Shown here piece after piece: positions 14,829 to 23,160 of a stretch of DNA of 34,110 nt (position 1 is its first letter; every line of letters starts with the position of its first letter). The position numbers were made by a program, and so were the translations under genes. Location of the stretch: positions 1 through 34,110 of the forward strand of contig CAIVPR010000030.1 in the NCBI GenBank assembly GCA_903907865.1, given 5' to 3'. This DNA comes from an uncultured Acidobacteriia bacterium (lineage in GTDB: Bacteria; Acidobacteriota; Terriglobia; Bryobacterales; Bryobacteraceae). The notes beneath the pieces were generated by a model that was given only the letters and a program-made list of their open reading frames with translations, was not told where the DNA came from and ran no database searches.

Positions 14829-16697
14829 TTAGCGGATCGACATCTTGTCCAGCGAGTCGCCCGTCGCATTGAGTTTTGCCGTGCCGGCTTTGAAGCCATT
14901 GAACTGGAGAATGTAAGCGAGAATGTTGCTGTAAACTTCGTCCGTCAGCGACGCCGGAGCGGACGGCGGCATGGTCTTCGCGTGGTCGTAGAACTTCCGA
15001 ACCGTCTGGCCGACCCACTTGCCACGGAAGTATTCGCCCGCCAGCGGCGGACCGAAGGTGCCGTTCGTCATCGTGTTGCCATGGCAGGCGGCACAATTGG
15101 AATTGAACGCGTCCTTGCCCAAGGCGGCTTGTTCGACCGTGAACTGCGGGGCAATGCCCTGAGTGCTACTAGCCGGAACGCTCGCGCTCGCTGCAGCGCC
15201 AGTCTGGCCGGAACGACCGGGGGCTGCGGCAGAGACACCGGTGCCTTCCCCAACGTACGTAAAAGCCAGAATCGCGCCGGGGTTCTGCATCTTCCCCGTA
15301 GTTCCGCCCGAGAGCGATTCGGCAAGGCCTCCGGGATCGGTGGCGACGTAAATCGTCCTTCCATCGGGGCTGACTGCGGTATCGCGGTAGCGATTTTCGC
15401 TCTGGAAGTAGCGCGAGAAATGACCGGCGGCTGCCTTGCCGTCGGCGGTCAGCGGCAGTATGTACAGGGAGCCCCGCTTCAGGGTCGTCACCAGAAGAAC
15501 TTTGTCCCAACCCGGGATCCCTTTTCCTCCCGAGGCGTAGTATTCCACGCCAGAAGTACCCACGGTCGGCCAGCAGATGAAGTCGACCCCCTTGCAGGCG
15601 GGGGCGTGGAAGTTGTACCCGGTCGGCACGGTGAACATGGTTGCGATCGGCTCCACGAAAGGCTGGGTGAAGGCCGATTCCGGCGTGCGGGGCACGGATG
15701 GATCGATCGCGAGGTCGCTGAAAGTCAGCGTCGAGCAACCCTTCGACGATTCGGCCCAGCGCGCGTATTCATACGCCTTGCCGTCCTTCTTGCCGGCCAC
15801 ATGCGGCCACCCATAGTTGGACCCGGGTGTCAGGATATTGACCTCGTCGTCGGTTTTCGGGCCCTGTTCGGAAGCGTAGAGCGTGCCGTCCGGCCCGAAG
15901 TCGATGCCTTGCATATTGCGGTGGCCGTAGGTGTAGACGTGGCTGACCACGCCGCCCAGTTTCGGGTTGTCGTCCGGGATCGAGCCGTCCAGATTCAGGC
16001 GGAGCGACTTGCCGACATATGCGGCGTACACCTTCCGGCCGATCTCGTCCTTGGTCGGCAGCCGCTGGGCCTCAATCGGCCAGCAGAAGTTGCCGAGCTG
16101 GTTGTGTCCCTCGTCGCCCAAGGTCAAGTACAGCTTCCTGTCCGGTCCAATCTTCAGCCGTCCCGCAACGTGGTCGTTGCCGACCGGCAATCCGGCGATC
16201 ACCTCGACCGGATTGGAGAGCTTGCCGGTGGCCTTGTCGTAGCTGAGCCGCACGACCTTGCCGTAGAGATACCGGTACGGGCTCTTGGCGTCGGAGAAGA
16301 AAGGGCTGGCCTCCCTGTTCCGGTCGACGTAGGTGTAGGCGGCGTAGACATAGTCGTTGCCCGTGCCCTTGAGCAGGTCGGGGTGCAGGGCCATGCCGAG
16401 CAAGCCGTCCTGGGCACCCGGTGCCGAGACTTCGTTGATCGTGATCGCAGGGCTAGGCCGCCCGGTCGCCGGATCGACGCGCGTGATGCGCTTGCCCGTC
16501 CGCTCGGTCACCCAGAGCATGTTGTCGGGTCCCCAGGTGAGTTCCCAGGGACCCGCAAGCCCGGTGGCCACGACGGTCCTGCGAAACTCCTTGGTTCCGC
16601 GGAGCACCGACTCCGGCCCGTCCTGGGCCGCCGCCAATTGCAGGAAAAGAAAAGCCAAGGGCAGCAGCGCCGCGCGGACTGAGCAGTTTCTGGACAT
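14829..16697 (-). CDS. PQQ-type sugar dehydrogenase with C-terminal cytochrome c domain
   Basis: A 622-residue periplasmic protein. A signal peptide (LLPLAFLFLQLAAAQ) precedes a six-bladed propeller of the glucose/sorbosone dehydrogenase family (PF07995). Its signatures include LAGPWELTWGPDNMLWVTER, DGLLGMALHPD, GHRNMQGIDFGPDGTLYASEQGP and GSNYGWP. A Gly/Ala/Ser linker at about 485-515 leads to a class I cytochrome c domain with Cys535-AA-Cys538-His539 and a likely axial Met576 (KTMPP). The family oxidises aldose sugars with PQQ, and the fused haem can pass electrons to the respiratory chain. PQQ synthesis genes are not in the window. It lies 51 bp downstream of the YVTN gene on the same strand, so the two are likely one transcript. 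The exact sugar is unknown. Confidence 0.9.
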   Translation of the reverse strand: MSRNCSVRAALLPLAFLFLQLAAAQDGPESVLRGTKEFRRTVVATGLAGPWELTWGPDNMLWVTERTGKRITRVDPATGRPSPAITINEVSAPGAQDGLLGMALHPDLLKGTGNDYVYAAYTYVDRNREASPFFSDAKSPYRYLYGKVVRLSYDKATGKLSNPVEVIAGLPVGNDHVAGRLKIGPDRKLYLTLGDEGHNQLGNFCWPIEAQRLPTKDEIGRKVYAAYVGKSLRLNLDGSIPDDNPKLGGVVSHVYTYGHRNMQGIDFGPDGTLYASEQGPKTDDEVNILTPGSNYGWPHVAGKKDGKAYEYARWAESSKGCSTLTFSDLAIDPSVPRTPESAFTQPFVEPIATMFTVPTGYNFHAPACKGVDFICWPTVGTSGVEYYASGGKGIPGWDKVLLVTTLKRGSLYILPLTADGKAAAGHFSRYFQSENRYRDTAVSPDGRTIYVATDPGGLAESLSGGTTGKMQNPGAILAFTYVGEGTGVSAAAPGRSGQTGAAASASVPASSTQGIAPQFTVEQAALGKDAFNSNCAACHGNTMTNGTFGPPLAGEYFRGKWVGQTVRKFYDHAKTMPPSAPASLTDEVYSNILAYILQFNGFKAGTAKLNATGDSLDKMSIR

Positions 16698-16748: not shown

Positions 16749-17822
16749 CTACTGGACGCGGTCCAGAGTGACGACGCCCCACGGACTGCCGCTCGCCTTT
16801 ATCTTCTTCGTGACTGTGTTGGTGGCGACGTCGACGACGGAAATGTCGTTCGAGGGTCCATTGGCCGAATAGTGGGTCTTGCCGTCGGGTGAGACGGCGA
16901 TTCCCCAGGGACGCTGGCCCACTTCGACCGCCCCCGCGACCTTGTCTGTAGCGGTGTCGATTGTGAACACTTGATGCCCTCTACCGGTGCTGACAAACAA
17001 CTTGGTCGCATCCGGCGACAACAGAACAGCCATCGGTTTGATCTCTCCGGGCTTGCCCAAGGAAATCGCGCCCGTCATTTTCTGCTTCACCGCGTCCACC
17101 ACCACCACCGTGCCGTCGTTCTCGGCGTTGATGTAAGCCTTCGTGCCGTCCGGTGTGAACGCGACCGAGCGGGGCCTGTGCCCGACTTTAAATGTCTTGA
17201 GGATCTTGCCCGCGACCGGGTCCAACACCCCGATGGTGCCCGTTTCTTCCGACGTCACGTAGACGAGCTTGCCGTCCGGCGTCACCTTGACACCCTCCGG
17301 CTGCGCCCCCACTTTGGCCGATTTGACAACCGTACCCGAGGCGACGTCGACGACGCTCACGGCGGAATCGTCCTCGTTCGAGATGAACAGCTGTGTGCCG
17401 TCCTTGCTGATGTCGAAGTTTTCCGGATCCGACCCGGCCTTGAGGACACGGACAACCTTGTTCTGGGCCACATCGAAGACTCCGATACCGTCGGCACTGT
17501 GGTCGGCGGGCGGCAGCGAGTCTTCATCAACGCCGGGGCCTGCGATCGGCGACCCGCTCAATGCCACGTAGATCGTTTTCCGGTCGGGACTTGCGTGGAT
17601 TCCACGCGGCCGTTTTCCGAGAGGCACGGTGGCGATCACGGTCGCAGTCGCGGAATCGATGACGGTCAGGTCCCCTGAGACCTCGTTGGTCACGTAGACC
17701 CGGTACGCGGTCGATTCCGCGGGCTTCTTCTCCGCCGCCTGTTGCACGGGAGCGGGGGTGGAGCAGTTCGTGCAGAGAGCAAAAAGGCACGTGGGCAGAA
17801 GCAGATTCCTGATGATGGGCAA
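16749..17822 (-). CDS. Secreted YVTN/YncE-type beta-propeller protein
   Basis: A 357-residue extracytoplasmic seven-bladed propeller. The N-terminus is a signal sequence (LLLPTCLFALC); no ideal lipobox is present. Blades repeat every 40 or so residues with the YVTN-type pattern: YVTNEVSGDLTVID, LFISNEDDSAVSVVD, VYVTSEETGTIGVLD, AYINAENDGTVVVVD, LFVSTGRGHQVFTID and SANGPSNDISVVD. The start is TTG at 17822, with a good ribosome site (GAGGAG) six bases away and no ATG alternative. A small leader hairpin (AGGGG and CCCCT, 17835-17850) lies just upstream. YVTN propellers often accompany PQQ or cytochrome c proteins, which fits the downstream dehydrogenase. The ligand is unknown. The 25-bp ECF-like motif at 17860-17884 lies 38 bp before the start. 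Confidence 0.9.
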   Translation of the reverse strand: MPIIRNLLLPTCLFALCTNCSTPAPVQQAAEKKPAESTAYRVYVTNEVSGDLTVIDSATATVIATVPLGKRPRGIHASPDRKTIYVALSGSPIAGPGVDEDSLPPADHSADGIGVFDVAQNKVVRVLKAGSDPENFDISKDGTQLFISNEDDSAVSVVDVASGTVVKSAKVGAQPEGVKVTPDGKLVYVTSEETGTIGVLDPVAGKILKTFKVGHRPRSVAFTPDGTKAYINAENDGTVVVVDAVKQKMTGAISLGKPGEIKPMAVLLSPDATKLFVSTGRGHQVFTIDTATDKVAGAVEVGQRPWGIAVSPDGKTHYSANGPSNDISVVDVATNTVTKKIKASGSPWGVVTLDRVQ

Positions 17823-17859: not shown

Positions 17860-17884
17860 GTTCCGCCTCAGGCCCGTTTGTTCA
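17860..17884 (-). promoter_or_regulatory. Candidate ECF promoter for the YVTN-PQQ pair
   Basis: Read on the minus strand: TGAACAAAC (17884-17876), then GGAAC (17864-17860), starting exactly 20 bp apart and preceded by an A-rich tract (AAATAAAAT). The same two words at the same spacing occur in both arms of the palindrome between the sigma factor and TonB receptor genes. Three matches in regulatory gaps of one neighbourhood make a shared regulator likely. Which part is the -35 and which the -10 is inference; TGAAC fits a -35 preceded by A-rich DNA. Confidence 0.6.
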
Positions 17885-17910
17885 GATTTTATTTGCCGGC
17901 TTGCGGGGGA

Positions 17911-18882
17911 TTACCGCGCGCCATCCTTGGGCAGCACCAGAACCGCCAGCGCACAGCTTTTCGACTCGATCGAAAGTGCCTGTGGCCCTCCGAGCAAACT
18001 ACCGTTCGCCGGATACCCGCGATGGAACGCCGAAAGGGAATACTCCCCGCCAACCAGTCCATCGAACACGAACCGGCCTTTGCCGTCGGATGTGGCGTAC
18101 CGGAGCAGCCGCTCGGACCGCAACTCGAGGACCACTCCCGGCACCGGCGATCTCATCGTTGTTGGATCGTGCATCTTGTCCAGATCCAACTGGTACGAAT
18201 AGTCCGTGGTTGTGAAGCCCTCCAGCCGCGTCGATTCCTCCCGCCGCCCCTTGTAGAAAGTCAGATAGGCCAAATCCTCGCCCGCGTCGGTCAACCGGCG
18301 GGTGCGGGCGCAGACGGTTGTCGAGAGAACTCCCGAGCTTTCCTCGTTGTCGGCGTAGACCAAGTAGGTTTCGCCGACCTGGAAATCGATGCCGCAATCG
18401 CCGAACGGCGTCGAGACTTCCAAATAATCGTCGTCGTCCTCGTCGTCGTCATCTTCGCCGTGCTTGAAGAACGTCCGCACCTTGAACCGTACCCTCAGTC
18501 CGCCACTGAGCGAGGCATCGAAAAGCGACGCGATGTCCCGTACCGTGCTTGCCGCCTTCATGCGCTCCCTGCCTTCCGGTTCCAGATCGGGAAAGGTCCG
18601 CAGATACGCCTCCTTGAGGGTGTCCAGCGACGCGGGAGACGGATGATCCGTCGCGTCGAGATACGCGGCGTTCAGCGATTGCAGGGACGGGCGACTAGCC
18701 AGGTTCCAACGGCTCAGGAAAATTGGAGACATGGACTCCACCGTTCCAATAAAGACGGTGTTGCTCGCGGCAACCTCGTTGCAGGGGGCGTAGGACGCCT
18801 GGCAAGTGCACGCCGAGGCTGGCGGAGTGCCATGCAACGCCGCGCAGAGCAGGAGGATGGACCCGGCGCGTCGGACTCTCAC
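17911..18882 (-). CDS. Secreted Cys-rich protein, NTR/TIMP-like start, acidic run and regulatory-like C-terminal domain
   Basis: A 323-residue extracytoplasmic protein. GTG at 18882 overlaps the anti-sigma stop codon by four bases (GTGA), indicating translational coupling, and gives a signal peptide (SILLLCAALHGTPPASA). The mature start, Cys25-T-Cys27 with Cys34 followed by ASNTVFIGTV, resembles netrin/TIMP-like (NTR) proteins in bacteria. Around residues 143-152 lies an acidic run of eight Asp and one Glu after HGE, encoded by a GAC/GAT-rich repeat. The last 80 residues (PGVVLELRSERLLRYATSDGKGRF type) look like a carboxypeptidase regulatory-like beta sandwich. Coupling to the sigma/anti-sigma pair suggests a part in envelope signalling, but function is not known. 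Confidence 0.85.
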   Translation of the reverse strand: MRVRRAGSILLLCAALHGTPPASACTCQASYAPCNEVAASNTVFIGTVESMSPIFLSRWNLASRPSLQSLNAAYLDATDHPSPASLDTLKEAYLRTFPDLEPEGRERMKAASTVRDIASLFDASLSGGLRVRFKVRTFFKHGEDDDDEDDDDYLEVSTPFGDCGIDFQVGETYLVYADNEESSGVLSTTVCARTRRLTDAGEDLAYLTFYKGRREESTRLEGFTTTDYSYQLDLDKMHDPTTMRSPVPGVVLELRSERLLRYATSDGKGRFVFDGLVGGEYSLSAFHRGYPANGSLLGGPQALSIESKSCALAVLVLPKDGAR

Positions 18883-19703
18883 CTTGCGGAATCCGCCCGG
18901 GGTCTGCGATGTTCCGGCAGCGGCTGGTCCACCTGGAAATACTTCTTGTAGGCGGAAATCCAATTGGTGGCGATTTCCTGCTGGGCTTCCCCAAGGTCGA
19001 GACTGCCTTCGCACACCATCTCGCGAAGCCGGTCTTCCAGCGCGTCCTTCACATGGGCGTTCCATGTGGTCGACTGCGAGTGCGGCCACAAGTTGTGGAT
19101 GTCGTCGGCGCCGCCGAGTGCGGGCGTCACAAGATAGTCCACTTCATAGGCCTGTGGATCCGCGCTGGGAATGCCGTATTCCTGAAAAACCTGCCGCTGC
19201 AGCGAGACGGGGACGGACCGGTTTCCTTCGGCGGACTGGGAGCAAACGGCGGACCTGTGCAGCAACACGGTGGCTCCGGGTGTCAGCCGCGAATCGGGCA
19301 TGTAGTACAAGGCCGCTTGTAGGCGCGGGCGACCCGTCCGCTTGACGATGAGGCCGCTGGTTGCGACCCCCAGCGCGAGTACCGCACAGGCCGCCATCGC
19401 AACGGCAAGGCTCCGGGAGAGCCAAAACCGGGCTAGGCCGCGCGGGCTGGCCTCGGACAACTGCGCCATCCTTGCCCTCAAGAGCGCCCGTGGTCCCGAC
19501 GGCGAAGGCAGGTCAGGCGCAAACTCACTCTGATGAAGCCGGACGAAATCCGTGATCGCCCCCTCGAATTCCTGTCGGCGGGCCCGGCAGGTCCAGCACG
19601 CCGAAAGATGTGCGCGGGCCATCTTGCCCTCGTGGGCCGAAAGTTCTCCTTCGACATCGAGAAGCAACTGCTGGTCGGAGAGATGCGAATCCGGATAGTT
19701 CAT
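18879..19703 (-). CDS. Anti-sigma factor with HNH-like extracytoplasmic domain
   Basis: A 274-residue single-pass membrane anti-sigma factor. The N-terminal zinc-binding anti-sigma domain has His24, His32, Cys36 and Cys39 (AHLSACWTC). A membrane segment spans about residues 98-120 (SLAVAMAACAVLALGVATSGLIV). The outer domain (about 130-256) carries the framework of a secreted HNH-type nuclease family: EVDYLVTPALGG (187-198), NLWP (204-207), VKDALED (218-224), MVCEGSLDL (229-237) and AQQEIATNWISAYKKY (240-255). In active relatives the first motif reads EVDHL; here His is Tyr190 (TAT). I infer a sensor domain made from an inactive nuclease fold. ATG at 19703 lies 9 bp after the sigma stop, with AAAGG as ribosome site. 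Confidence 0.88.
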   Translation of the reverse strand: MNYPDSHLSDQQLLLDVEGELSAHEGKMARAHLSACWTCRARRQEFEGAITDFVRLHQSEFAPDLPSPSGPRALLRARMAQLSEASPRGLARFWLSRSLAVAMAACAVLALGVATSGLIVKRTGRPRLQAALYYMPDSRLTPGATVLLHRSAVCSQSAEGNRSVPVSLQRQVFQEYGIPSADPQAYEVDYLVTPALGGADDIHNLWPHSQSTTWNAHVKDALEDRLREMVCEGSLDLGEAQQEIATNWISAYKKYFQVDQPLPEHRRPRADSAR

Positions 19704-19712
19704 AGCAGTTTT

Positions 19713-20303
19713 TCACCTTTCGGCGGAGCGCGCCACCCGCGCCAACGACCTCGTTAGTGACATGGACACAGCCCCGAGCGACATACCGAGAACCTCACCG
19801 ATCTCCCGGTAGCGCAACCCTTCGGCCCGCAGGAAAAGACAGCGGCGGTCCTGCTCGGGCAGTGCGTCAACCACCGCCCGGACACGCTTTTGAGCTTGGT
19901 CGTTGGCGAAGCATGCCTCCGGGTTGGGGGCGGGGTCGGCAGCCCGCTCCGCGTCGCTGGCCTCCAACTGCACTTCCGAATCGCGCCGTGTTCGTTGGCG
20001 ATGCCGCAGCGCGAGGTTGTGGGCGACCCGGAACAACCACCCGCGGACGTTTTCGACGGGTTTGCCCGCATCCAAGTGGCGGTATAAGGCAAGGAACACC
20101 TCCTGCAATACCTCTTCCCCGTCGGACACTTCCAGCCCAAACGTCCACAAGTACCGAAGCAGGGGATCCCGAAGCTGGTCGAAAACCGCGGTGACATCCT
20201 CGTGGAGTCTGGCGTGCGCATCCCCGCGCCGCGTCGAAGCTGCGATGGGCAGCAGCGGCGTAGCCAAGGAAACTGGAAACCGGGGTGTCATGGAGCTACT
20301 CAT
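19713..20303 (-). CDS. ECF-type RNA polymerase sigma factor
   Basis: A 196-residue sigma-70 family protein of the ECF class, with only regions 2 and 4. Region 2 covers FDQLRDPLLRYLWTFGLEVSDGEEVLQEVFLALYR in two blocks (FDQLRDPLLRYLWTF, then DGEEVLQEVFLALYR) and RGWLFRVAHNLALRHRQR. Region 4 covers LPEQDRRCLFLRAEGLRYRE and IGEVLGMSLGAVSMSLTRSL, a helix-turn-helix for the -35 element. The likely start is ATG 20303; ATG 20291 is a shorter option, and a longer frame to 20354 would run into the palindrome. It is first in a unit with its anti-sigma factor and the Cys-rich protein. The palindromic promoter region with its own arm suggests it activates itself and the divergent TonB receptor gene. Confidence 0.92.
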   Translation of the reverse strand: MSSSMTPRFPVSLATPLLPIAASTRRGDAHARLHEDVTAVFDQLRDPLLRYLWTFGLEVSDGEEVLQEVFLALYRHLDAGKPVENVRGWLFRVAHNLALRHRQRTRRDSEVQLEASDAERAADPAPNPEACFANDQAQKRVRAVVDALPEQDRRCLFLRAEGLRYREIGEVLGMSLGAVSMSLTRSLARVARSAER

Positions 20304-20310
20304 ACTGGAT

Positions 20311-20388
20311 GTTCCACCGCCGCCCGGTTTGTTCACTGTTTTTTCTCGGTGCACAAAAAACCGTGAACAAACCGGGCCGCGGTGGAAC
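20311..20388. promoter_or_regulatory. Palindromic divergent promoter region, 34-bp arms
   Basis: Arm 1 (20311-20344) and arm 2 (20355-20388) are inverted copies with 32 of 34 bases matching, around the loop CTCGGTGCAC. Each arm read outward gives AAAAAAC, TGAACAAAC, a GC-rich stretch, then GGAAC. The minus-strand arm ends 8 bp before the sigma ATG, and the plus-strand arm ends 9 bp before the TonB-receptor ATG. Each arm also supplies GGTGGA, a possible ribosome site. If TGAAC is a -35 element, transcripts would begin at or close to the start codons. The DNA would also form a very strong cruciform or RNA hairpin. Confidence 0.8.
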
Positions 20389-20397
20389 TTACATTAT

Positions 20398-23160
20398 ATG
20401 GACACATTGAGACATCGACTGGGCTCGGCACCAGTCCTGTTCCTTCTAGGGCTTGCTGGCGTGGCTGCCCCGCTCCTGGCGCAGCAGACCACCGGCAGTA
20501 TTCGAATCGAGGTGAAGGATCCGTCCGGGGCGGCCGCGCAGGCTTCCCTCAAGCTGGGTTCCCGACCGGTGGAGACCGATTCCCAAGGTGTCTACGAATC
20601 GAAAAGTCTCACCGCCGGCCACTACCGGATCGAAGTATCCAAGACTGGATTCGAGACTCAGTCCATCGAGGTCGACGTCAAACCCGACGTGCCCGTTTCG
20701 CGAACAGTCACGCTGGTGATCGGGGCGCAGTCCTCCCGTGTGGATGTTGTGGCGACCACGCCGCTGCCGGGAGTGGATCTGTCGGTCAACCAGGTCGCGG
20801 CGGCGGTCCAAGTCGCGACGCAAGCCGAGATCGAGGCAAGCGGTGCGAGCGATCTCCCCGATTTCCTGAACCGTCGCCTCAACGGCGTCTACCTGAACGA
20901 AATGCAGGGGAATCCCTATCAGCCGGATGTGAACTTCCGGGGCTACACGGCGTCCCCCTTGCTCGGAACCCCGCAGGGCATCGCCGTCTATTTGGACGGC
21001 GTGAGGCAGAACCAACCGTTCGGCGATGTGGTGAGCTGGGATCTGATTCCGAAAAACGCCATTTCCTCGCTTACGCTGATGCCCGGCTCGGACCCGATTT
21101 TCGGCCTCAATGCGCTGGGCGGAGCACTCTCGGTGCAAACCAAGGATGGTTCCACCAGCCCCGGCCTTTCGGGCAACCTGACGTGGGGCAGCAGCGGACG
21201 CAAGGCCGTGGAAGCCGAGGCGGGCGGCGGCAAGGCTACCGGCTTCAACTGGTTTCTTGCGGCGAATGCATTCCACGAATCCGGTTGGCGGTACGACTCG
21301 CCGTCGGACGTGCGGCAGGGTTTTGCCCGTCTCGGCTGGCGCACCCCCAAAACGGATTTGGGGCTGACGCTTTCCTACGCCTACAACACCCTCACCGGGA
21401 ATGGAGTCCAGGACTACCGCCTACTGGCAACGGACTACAAGAGCATCTACACTGCGCCGGACACTATCGGTAACCGGTCCCCGTCGCTGAACTTTCTGGT
21501 CCGGCACACCTTCACCAGTTCCGTGACCTTCTCCGGGAATGTGTACTACCGCAATATCAGGACGGAAAGCATCAACGGGAACTTGAATACCAATTCGCTC
21601 GATGAGTCGGTCTACCAGCCGAGCGCGGGCGATATCACAGCCCTGAAGAATGCTGGCTATACGGGGTACCCGGCAAGCGGGGCCAACGCGGCCAACACGC
21701 CGTTTCCCAAGTGGCGTTGCATCGCGCAGGCACTACAGTTCAGCGAGTCCATTGAAAAGTGCGACGCCATCATTGTTTACTCGAAGACCATTCAGAACCA
21801 GGCCGGCGCTTCGGGTCAGTTTAGCTGGGCAACCTCGCCGGATCCGTTCCACCGCGGCTCCGGGCGCAACCAGCTTACAGCCGGAGCCGCCTTCGACCGT
21901 GGTTCCGTAGTCTTCACGCAGAACACCCAGTTCGGCTATTTGAATCCGGACCGGACCGTCCACGGTATCGCCTCCTGGGAAGACGGCTCCACCAACAGCA
22001 ACGGCGATCCCGTCGACACGCGGGTCAACCTCCACGGAGTGACGCCCAGCTTCAGCCTCTTCGCGACCGACACGCTCACCATCGGACAGACCGTCAACCT
22101 GACGTTCTCGGGGCGGTACAACCGGAACACCATCGACAACAAGGACCTGTTTCAGCCCAAGGCCGGCCCGGGATCGCTCACCGGCACGAACGTCTACCAG
22201 CGCTTCAACCCGGCGCTGGGTTTCACGTGGAGTCCCTCGGCCTTGGTCAACCTGTATGCCAGCTACATTCAGGGAAGTCGGGCACCTACCTCCATCGAAT
22301 TGGGTTGCGCGGACCCCCTCAATCCCTGCAACCTGCCCAACGCGCTCGCCAGCGATCCGCCTCTCAAGCAGGTCACCACCGACACCTGGCAGGTCGGCGT
22401 TCGTGGCAAGACCGAGGCGCACATCAACTGGAACCTCGGTGCGTTCACCGCCGCAAACCAGAATGACATCCTGTTTGTCGCTTCGCAGCAAACGGGCACC
22501 GGCTATTTCAAGAACTTCGGAAAGACGCGGCGGCGTGGAGTTCAGGCCAGCGTGGATGGACAGTTTAAGACGGTCACCGGGGGGCTGGACTACACTTGGC
22601 TGGAGGCGACGTATCAAAGCACCGAGGTACTCTCGGGCACCGGCAACAACACCAACGACACGGCACTTTCGGGCTTTCCCGGCTTGGACGGCCTGATCAC
22701 CATTCACGCCGGCAACCGGATTCCACTGGTTCCCAAGCAAACGGGCAAGGCCTATTTGAATTGGCAGCCGACTCCCAAGCTGGTCCTCAATCTCAACCTG
22801 CTCGCAGCCTCCAGCGCCTACGCGCGCGGCAACGAGAACAACGCCTACAAGGCCGATGGAAAGTACTACCAGGGACCAGGCATCTCGCCCGGATACGCCG
22901 TGGTGAACTTCCGGGCCCACTACGACCTGACCCGCCGGTTCCAACTGGCGGTTCAACTGGACAACCTGTTCGACCGCCACTACTATACGGCGGCCCAGTT
23001 GGGAAACACGGGACTCACAGCGGCGGGCACGTTTGTTGCCCGACAGTTTGCAGCCTATGGAGCCGGCCCCCAATCAGGGAACTATCCGATCCAGAGCGTG
23101 ACGTTCTTCGCGCCAGGGGCTCCCCGTAGGGCGTGGGCCGAACTTCGGGTCCGGTTCTGA
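20398..23160 (+). CDS. TonB-dependent outer membrane receptor with N-terminal regulatory-like domain
   Basis: A 920-residue outer-membrane receptor. ATG 20398 starts a signal peptide (FLLGLAGVAAPLLAQQ); longer frames run through the sigma gene and can be ignored. Residues about 33-115 form a carboxypeptidase regulatory-like beta sandwich (GSIRIEVKDPSGAAAQ, TAGHYRIEVSKTGFE). The plug follows (VNFRGYTASPLLGTPQGIAV, YLDGVRQNQPFGD, DPIFGLNALGGALSVQTKDG). The remainder is a 22-strand-type barrel with NLYASYIQGSRAPTSIELG and FQLAVQLDNLFDRHYY, ending in a terminal Phe (ELRVRF) as outer-membrane assembly requires. It is divergent from the ECF sigma/anti-sigma genes, the arrangement of receptors controlled by cell-surface signalling. 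There is no separate N-terminal signalling (STN) domain. Substrate unknown. Confidence 0.95.
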   Translation: MDTLRHRLGSAPVLFLLGLAGVAAPLLAQQTTGSIRIEVKDPSGAAAQASLKLGSRPVETDSQGVYESKSLTAGHYRIEVSKTGFETQSIEVDVKPDVPVSRTVTLVIGAQSSRVDVVATTPLPGVDLSVNQVAAAVQVATQAEIEASGASDLPDFLNRRLNGVYLNEMQGNPYQPDVNFRGYTASPLLGTPQGIAVYLDGVRQNQPFGDVVSWDLIPKNAISSLTLMPGSDPIFGLNALGGALSVQTKDGSTSPGLSGNLTWGSSGRKAVEAEAGGGKATGFNWFLAANAFHESGWRYDSPSDVRQGFARLGWRTPKTDLGLTLSYAYNTLTGNGVQDYRLLATDYKSIYTAPDTIGNRSPSLNFLVRHTFTSSVTFSGNVYYRNIRTESINGNLNTNSLDESVYQPSAGDITALKNAGYTGYPASGANAANTPFPKWRCIAQALQFSESIEKCDAIIVYSKTIQNQAGASGQFSWATSPDPFHRGSGRNQLTAGAAFDRGSVVFTQNTQFGYLNPDRTVHGIASWEDGSTNSNGDPVDTRVNLHGVTPSFSLFATDTLTIGQTVNLTFSGRYNRNTIDNKDLFQPKAGPGSLTGTNVYQRFNPALGFTWSPSALVNLYASYIQGSRAPTSIELGCADPLNPCNLPNALASDPPLKQVTTDTWQVGVRGKTEAHINWNLGAFTAANQNDILFVASQQTGTGYFKNFGKTRRRGVQASVDGQFKTVTGGLDYTWLEATYQSTEVLSGTGNNTNDTALSGFPGLDGLITIHAGNRIPLVPKQTGKAYLNWQPTPKLVLNLNLLAASSAYARGNENNAYKADGKYYQGPGISPGYAVVNFRAHYDLTRRFQLAVQLDNLFDRHYYTAAQLGNTGLTAAGTFVARQFAAYGAGPQSGNYPIQSVTFFAPGAPRRAWAELRVRF

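Follow-up and report, generated by a model that had tools for sequence, protein, structure and literature searches.

A predicted zinc anti-sigma factor of Acidobacteriota carries an HNH-like outer domain with tyrosine at the general-base position

Introduction

Few signalling devices are as common in bacteria as ECF systems, and we know of no signal for most of their anti-sigma factors. The window, as we call the whole stretch of 34,110 nucleotides analysed here, belongs to an uncultured member of the Acidobacteriota, which are abundant, poorly understood soil bacteria. An earlier note on this DNA described an anti-sigma factor whose outer domain looks like an HNH nuclease that has lost its general-base His. 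The locus raises the question whether an enzyme has become a sensor here and what such a sensor would control. The reading that we prefer, at a probability of roughly 0.55, is that an ex-nuclease outer domain has turned into the sensor of an anti-sigma factor controlling a small private regulon.

Results and Discussion

The anti-sigma factor and its operon

The gene in question (18879..19703, reverse strand, ATG at 19703) has a reading frame for 274 aa, and the gene order and domains around it were computed directly. Its product begins with a cytoplasmic zinc anti-sigma part of about residues 1–60 (19524..19703, reverse strand; H7, H32-x3-C36-x2-C39), delimited by conservation and profile matches. 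It is followed by a membrane helix predicted from hydropathy (residues ~98–120; 19344..19412, reverse strand) and by the extracytoplasmic HNH-like domain (residues 127–256; 18936..19325, reverse strand), placed by a fold model of residues 127–274 and a fold comparison with the PDB. The range 18879-19320 singled out earlier corresponds to about residues 128–274, that is, the outer domain together with the stop codon.

H7, H32, C36 and C39 are invariant in an alignment of 36 sequences, and hydropathy found a hydrophobic stretch like that at residues ~98–120 in 121 of the 138 anti-sigma copies described below. The family profile matches the solved anti-sigma factors ChrR (9e-4; PDB 2q1z) and RsiW (3e-4; PDB 5wuq). 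Pfam did not find zf-HC2 in the window's own protein, whose match to NF052375 of NCBIfam is below the cut-off, and zf-HC2 is present at E ≤ 0.1 in 28 of 36 homologues. The stop of the sigma gene (19713) lies 9 bases ahead of the anti-sigma start, and across the collection 131 of the 138 loci have a sigma gene on the strand of the anti-sigma gene, which it directly neighbours in 126. The profile matches, the zf-HC2 of the homologues and the neighbouring sigma gene uphold the identification as an anti-sigma factor, and the sequence supports a membrane-bound class I zinc protein that is predicted to bind and inhibit its sigma factor. The cytoplasmic zinc domain would thus hold the neighbouring ECF sigma factor.

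This sigma factor (19713..20303, reverse strand; Pfam Sigma70_r2 and r4) has 196 aa if ATG 20303, an inferred start, is used. A longer frame from GTG 20354 would contain the promoter-like motif discussed below, and ATG 20303 lies just after it. At another locus (L072:1896-3389) sigma factor and anti-sigma/HNH protein seem to share one open frame of 494 aa from ATG, either as a true fusion or through a sequence error. The third operon gene in the window (17911..18882, reverse strand) encodes a protein that is predicted to be secreted. Close to the start this protein has a CTC motif, and its end resembles CarboxypepD_reg, the Pfam match to which is weak and below the cut-off. The anti-sigma stop and the GTG start of the third gene share bases (GTGA), and the two genes are apparently translationally coupled; relatives of the third gene were found in just 3 of 138 loci, the window included.

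An HNH-like outer domain

The fold model of residues 127–274 (pLDDT 89.5, pTM 0.84) has a core built from a strand ending at D189-Y190, a strand straight after N204 and a helix bearing K219, D220 and E223. HNH or HNH-containing chains made up 25 of 33 rows of a Foldseek search against the PDB and 45 of 46 rows, among the matches listed, of a VIA fold comparison, both with weak scores, and in a weakly scored alignment Tyr190 falls on a His of Cas8f-HNH and of the Gme HNH 4h9d. For a second model, of the stand-alone protein L025, the top four rows of the comparison include Rhs2-CT, a Cas9 and the Gme HNH, with many unrelated rows lower down.

Because the window protein itself has no HNH match in Pfam, PHROGs or NCBIfam, the link was made through its His-bearing relatives. 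Their profile matches Cas8f-HNH at E = 7e-4; weaker matches, with E values from 0.3 to 1.2, are 4h9d, pyocin, an Rhs protein, McrA and Cas9. In alignment A2 the window's outer domain shares 40–76% identity with the 22 further anti-sigma outer domains and 27–46% with 7 proteins without an anti-sigma part, well above what chance would give. Such proteins also have in common with it, with some variation, the framework EVDxL, LGG, NLWP, KD, VC and AQ..IA..W that had been ascribed to a secreted HNH family, and several stand-alone HNH-like proteins begin, by eye, with what looks like a signal peptide or the start of a lipoprotein. It could be argued that the likeness is superficial and the outer domain an unrelated sensor, as the window's domain lacks a Pfam match and the fold scores are weak. 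We regard this as very improbable in view of the identity to the 7 His proteins, the match of the His-protein profile to Cas8f-HNH and the weaker ones to further HNH proteins, and the predicted strand-strand-helix. The earlier note had named a different fold, or homologues unlinked to HNH proteins, as outcomes that would speak against it; structure prediction and profile searches gave neither. Judged from the model, the domain is predicted, with high confidence, to have an HNH-like strand-strand-helix core, and it would descend from a secreted HNH nuclease family.

Residues of this core are strictly kept: none of the 174 domains deviates at D189, N204, K219, D220 or E223. On the sequences compared, the outer domain is under purifying selection (dN/dS median 0.069, maximum 0.196 in 28 close pairs). 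Cys154 and Cys231, each present in 138/138 anti-sigma and 29/36 stand-alone copies, could possibly form a disulfide.

Tyrosine, histidine and phenylalanine at residue 190

In order to place residue 190 in a wider context, 174 distinct outer domains were gathered, 138 in anti-sigma copies and 36 without an anti-sigma part; we call the latter stand-alone, though one of them forms a fusion with an S1/P1 nuclease. A scan of named genomes (best 80 of 254 relatives, 79 with acidobacterial labels), with search patterns that omit residue 190, contributed 70 of the 138 anti-sigma copies, and the other 68 came from the other genomes searched. These other sources were searches of relatives, phylum and class, all inside the window's phylum, and six plasmid loci were added, taken from 48 matching plasmid records. 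The whole-protein profile matches 146 of 399 genomes of the class among the matches listed, many of them ordinary anti-sigma factors without the outer domain, so the tally is to be read as a large sample and not as a census, and further fusions may exist outside the phylum.

Several members of this collection may be mentioned separately. The sole other copy of the HNH-like domain found in the window's own genome (L026:1948-3387, contig 14) is a His-bearing one fused to an S1/P1 nuclease. Two plasmid-borne HNH-like proteins (L129:1438-2477 and L130:1417-2465) each have a small gene of about 107 aa directly behind them. By eye the products of the two small genes are similar, possibly pointing to a conserved pair. 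At L086:1761-2258 a distant His-bearing HNH-like protein (EFDHWFPEWMGG) is encoded upstream of a sigma/anti-sigma pair. One record labelled Bordetella parapertussis (L092) contains a system whose match values are identical to those of L032, a genome from the family of the window, and its species label is probably wrong. For the stand-alone protein L037 no relative was found in phage records.

The Tyr190 codon, TAT (19134..19136, reverse strand), occupies the general-base His position of HNH nucleases according to the tally and the weakly scored alignment mentioned above. It is flanked by the codon of Asp189 (19137..19139, reverse strand), which together with Asn204 (19092..19094, reverse strand) is a putative metal ligand kept in all 174 domains. 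The anti-sigma copies, all from Acidobacteriota, have Tyr in 127, His in 9 and Phe in 2 of 138 cases, and all 36 stand-alone copies have His. Thus the exchange of the general-base His for Tyr, read from the frame and seen against the stand-alone relatives, is borne out, and the survey for His or Tyr that had been suggested gives a clear majority of Tyr. The Tyr codon is TAC in 75 and TAT in 52 copies. Other positions also separate the two groups: Pro194 is present in 138/138 anti-sigma and 0/36 stand-alone copies, Trp214 in 138/138 and 7/36. Glu187 is replaced by Gln in 24 of the 127 Tyr copies and is Glu in all others, including the 36 stand-alone ones. Tyr176 is also His in 5 of the 9 His copies, and both changes occur in the same branch.

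Catalysis and the history of the switch

The earlier note called the domain inactivated. Loss of nuclease activity is likely from the sequences, as it fits the two Phe190 copies and the 24 Gln187 copies. It does not fit the three returns of His inside the anti-sigma branch described below or the retention of the putative metal ligands, and it stays unproven because Tyr is the proposed base of PacI, an HNH enzyme. A review describes the metal of PacI as bound by Asp and Asn, with a tyrosine in the place of the general base (PMC4081073). The window has the same three kinds of residue (Asp, Tyr, Asn), PacI being compared by description only.

A domain that is still a nuclease, membrane-anchored and with Tyr190 as base in the manner of PacI, so that cutting or product release feeds the signal, is an alternative that we consider unlikely. 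The PacI site speaks for it, as do D189 and N204, kept in 138/138 copies next to a residue 190 that is only Y, H or F, and the threefold appearance of His, as though base residues were interchangeable. However, Phe (2/138) is unable to serve as a base, and Glu187, always Glu in the 36 stand-alone copies, is Gln in 24/127 Tyr copies. Moreover, His and Phe are among the commonest replacements of Tyr generally, so that these exchanges need not concern catalysis. From the claim of inactivation we thus keep the residue exchange as observed and the loss of activity as likely.

The order of events was examined with two trees, computed as directly as the residue distribution and the conservation. A quick tree of 171 rows, containing all 138 anti-sigma copies, with the residue-190 column removed and 3 stand-alone near copies left out, separates the anti-sigma domains from the rest by a branch with support 98, inside which His turns up in three separate places. 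For a careful tree 59 rows were chosen (37 of 127 Tyr, 9 His, 2 Phe and 11 of 36 stand-alone), with six long-branch stand-alone rows deliberately left out; alignments A3 and A4 are without the chosen rows L086 and L240. Here the anti-sigma branch has support 90/90, His takes three changes over the 5–95% range of 200 bootstrap trees, and a single His clade is rejected (AU p = 0.0003). Rooting on the stand-alone proteins gives, as the simplest history, one His to Tyr change near the fusion and three later changes from Tyr to His; as many inner branches are weak, this order is likely but not certain.

A promoter-like motif and a proposed small regulon

The best pair of sequence blocks is common to 61 of 128 upstream regions and to at most 5 in any one shuffled set. 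It consists of an A-tract, TGAACA, 14 bases and GGAATAT, and we use it as A(n)-N3-TGAACA-N14-GGAAY. By motif scan it stands in the window before the sigma gene (20311..20343, reverse strand), before the TonB-dependent receptor gene (20356..20388, forward strand), the ATG of which is 34 bases from the start of TGAACA, and before the beta-propeller gene (17860..17892, reverse strand). At 35 of the 128 loci the strict seed points towards the sigma gene and at 64 towards the divergent gene; 77 loci have it in one or both directions and 51 in neither. At four loci (L057, L191, L196, L213) the motif comes immediately before the anti-sigma gene; no sigma gene was detected at L057, and orphan anti-sigma copies may exist.

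The own genome of 7.5 Mb has three sites of the A-tract motif, and still three with one mismatch, against 0 in the control, and all three lie in the window. The own genome and 40 relatives together have 18 sites against 3 in controls; for a set of 200 genomes from the class the numbers are 25 and 0. Nine of these 25 are outside the collected sigma/anti-sigma loci: three stand before genes for Plug-domain receptors (L283, L286, L294), one before a quinoprotein (L281), one before a GFO/IDH-type oxidoreductase (L284) and one before what is, by eye, an apparent DNA ligase (L285), and at L279, L280 and L299 no clear gene follows. Only the A-tract form was used because the loose form TGAACA-N14-GGAA was rejected as non-specific (11 sites against 7 in the control). 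Judging by where the sites lie, the motif would be read by the cognate sigma factor.

The receptor, the quinoproteins and candidate ligands

The divergent gene (20398..23160, forward strand) encodes a TonB-dependent receptor of 920 aa with barrel, Plug and N-terminal CarboxypepD_reg domains in Pfam, in which an STN domain was not found at E ≤ 0.01; phmmer against the PDB gave nothing at 1e-3. Using tblastn, the window receptor matches at 69 of 138 anti-sigma loci. Four receptor-like queries match at 97 of 138, and at 54 of the 64 loci with more than 2.2 kb upstream; both numbers count receptor-like proteins and not proven receptors, because some matches span the first domain only and the queries from L023 and L111 have CarboxypepD_reg without Plug or barrel in Pfam.

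This frequent neighbour bears on a further alternative, which we find possible but doubtful, namely that no small ligand is bound and the old fold is a protein-docking platform, for example for the CarboxypepD_reg domain of the receptor, with the kept residues stabilising the fold. A receptor-like protein led by CarboxypepD_reg near the 54 of 64 loci would suit such docking, and Pro194 and Trp214, strict in the anti-sigma copies and absent or rare in the stand-alone ones, fit a new surface. Strict conservation of the putative metal ligands together with Lys219, Asp220 and Glu223 in 138/138 copies, however, goes beyond what a docking surface needs.

Downstream of the operon follow a YncE-like, PQQ-associated beta-propeller protein of 357 aa (16749..17822, reverse strand; Pfam PF21783), which matches TIGR03866 with E 2e-75 and 254 bits, under the cut-off of 287, and a PQQ-dependent glucose/sorbosone-type dehydrogenase with a C-terminal cytochrome c (14829..16697, reverse strand; TIGR03606, PF07995, PF13442), which matches TIGR03606 with E 1.8e-170, above the cut-off. 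The dehydrogenase gene lies downstream of the beta-propeller gene and lacks a promoter-like motif of its own. YncE-like beta-propellers occur near 23 of 134 loci with more than 1 kb downstream. PQQ-type dehydrogenases recur, as the GSDH-type enzyme in the window and as quinoproteins (PF01011) after the motif at L064 and L281. As far as the accessible text goes, xoxF3 clusters of Acidobacteria and Gemmatimonadetes include genes for YncE and TonB (PMC10875860).

PqqC is absent from the own genome (98% complete), and therefore a PQQ user may need to import PQQ here. Above the cut-off PqqC was found in 4 of 41 genomes and in 0 of 14 control genomes, those 4 relatives being the sole positive control. 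An identity of the receptor with PqqU was considered and rejected (NF041535, 93.5 bits against a cut-off of 1200); published PqqU of Acidobacteria is confined to Vicinamibacteria (PMC12124388). A metal or PQQ, or else nucleic acid, would be candidate ligands of the outer domain.

A model for the system

In the preferred reading, an HNH domain turned sensor, the general-base His would have changed to Tyr around the fusion while the putative metal-site residues were retained, and the main role of the outer domain would no longer be that of a nuclease. Its metal/phosphate site, or the surface around it, might bind a ligand or partner that reflects uptake by the co-regulated receptor. Binding would free the sigma factor, probably via proteolysis of the anti-sigma factor, and the freed sigma factor would read the motif before its own operon, the receptor gene and, here, also the beta-propeller gene and then the PQQ-dehydrogenase gene. 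A bolder version, quite unlikely to hold as a whole, is that the Tyr-locked HNH site binds a metal-cofactor or phosphodiester ligand brought by the TonB receptor. This ligand could be PQQ, for example, or a metal complex on which the quinoproteins of the regulon depend, and through it the site would govern a private ECF regulon throughout Acidobacteriota. The return of His in three lineages would then have restarted catalysis, so that the regulator cleaves the very signal it senses.

Across Acidobacteriota a single conserved outer domain keeps company with a single promoter-like motif and, in many cases, with a single kind of outer-membrane receptor, and therefore the signal-response circuit can be tested gene by gene. 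The series of Tyr, His and Phe at a single catalytic position could also serve as a natural experiment on the change from enzyme to sensor and on its reversibility.

Comparison with known systems

In the surface signalling system FecA/FecR/FecI a TonB-dependent receptor, a membrane anti-sigma factor and an ECF sigma factor are encoded together, and the window has the same three kinds of protein together. FecR-type signalling itself was rejected, as the receptor starts with CarboxypepD_reg and not with STN and the HNH-like outer domain has no FecR match. ChrR and RsiW share the Hx3Cx2C cytoplasmic domain encoded beside an ECF sigma gene, and to our knowledge neither carries an HNH-like outer domain. 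The stand-alone E-x-D-H-L...LGG...NLWP proteins, such as WP_134493347.1 of Methylocella tundrae, annotated as HNH endonuclease, have the same domain as the window protein and differ from it by His at the base position (36/36) and by lacking the anti-sigma part.

R.PacI differs from our protein in being a restriction enzyme and, as far as we know, has no regulatory part. By description it resembles the window protein in an HNH-type site with Asp and Asn ligands and Tyr replacing His (PMC4081073, accessible part).

We found no report of an anti-sigma factor with an HNH or nuclease domain in the literature covered, most subscription papers being outside that coverage; a broader search that did without HNH likewise gave no relevant title, and PMC3174227 gave nothing on it. 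The view that the arrangement is not described thus holds, in the literature covered, for this fold but not for the principle of a weakened enzyme as sensor. RsgI6 of Clostridium thermocellum is an anti-sigma factor with a GH10 domain of very low activity that still binds polysaccharide (PMC4711584, accessible part). As far as that part goes, RsgI and RsgI6 share with the window protein an enzyme-derived extracytoplasmic sensor on an anti-sigma factor, an autoregulated sigma factor and a functionally linked regulon, whereas RsgI6 differs by its sigma-I instead of an ECF sigma factor, by a glycoside hydrolase instead of an HNH fold and by its known ligands, the polysaccharides (PMC4711584). RsgI6 with its weakened GH10 enzyme is, on the accessible part of that source, the nearest described principle to the system found here.
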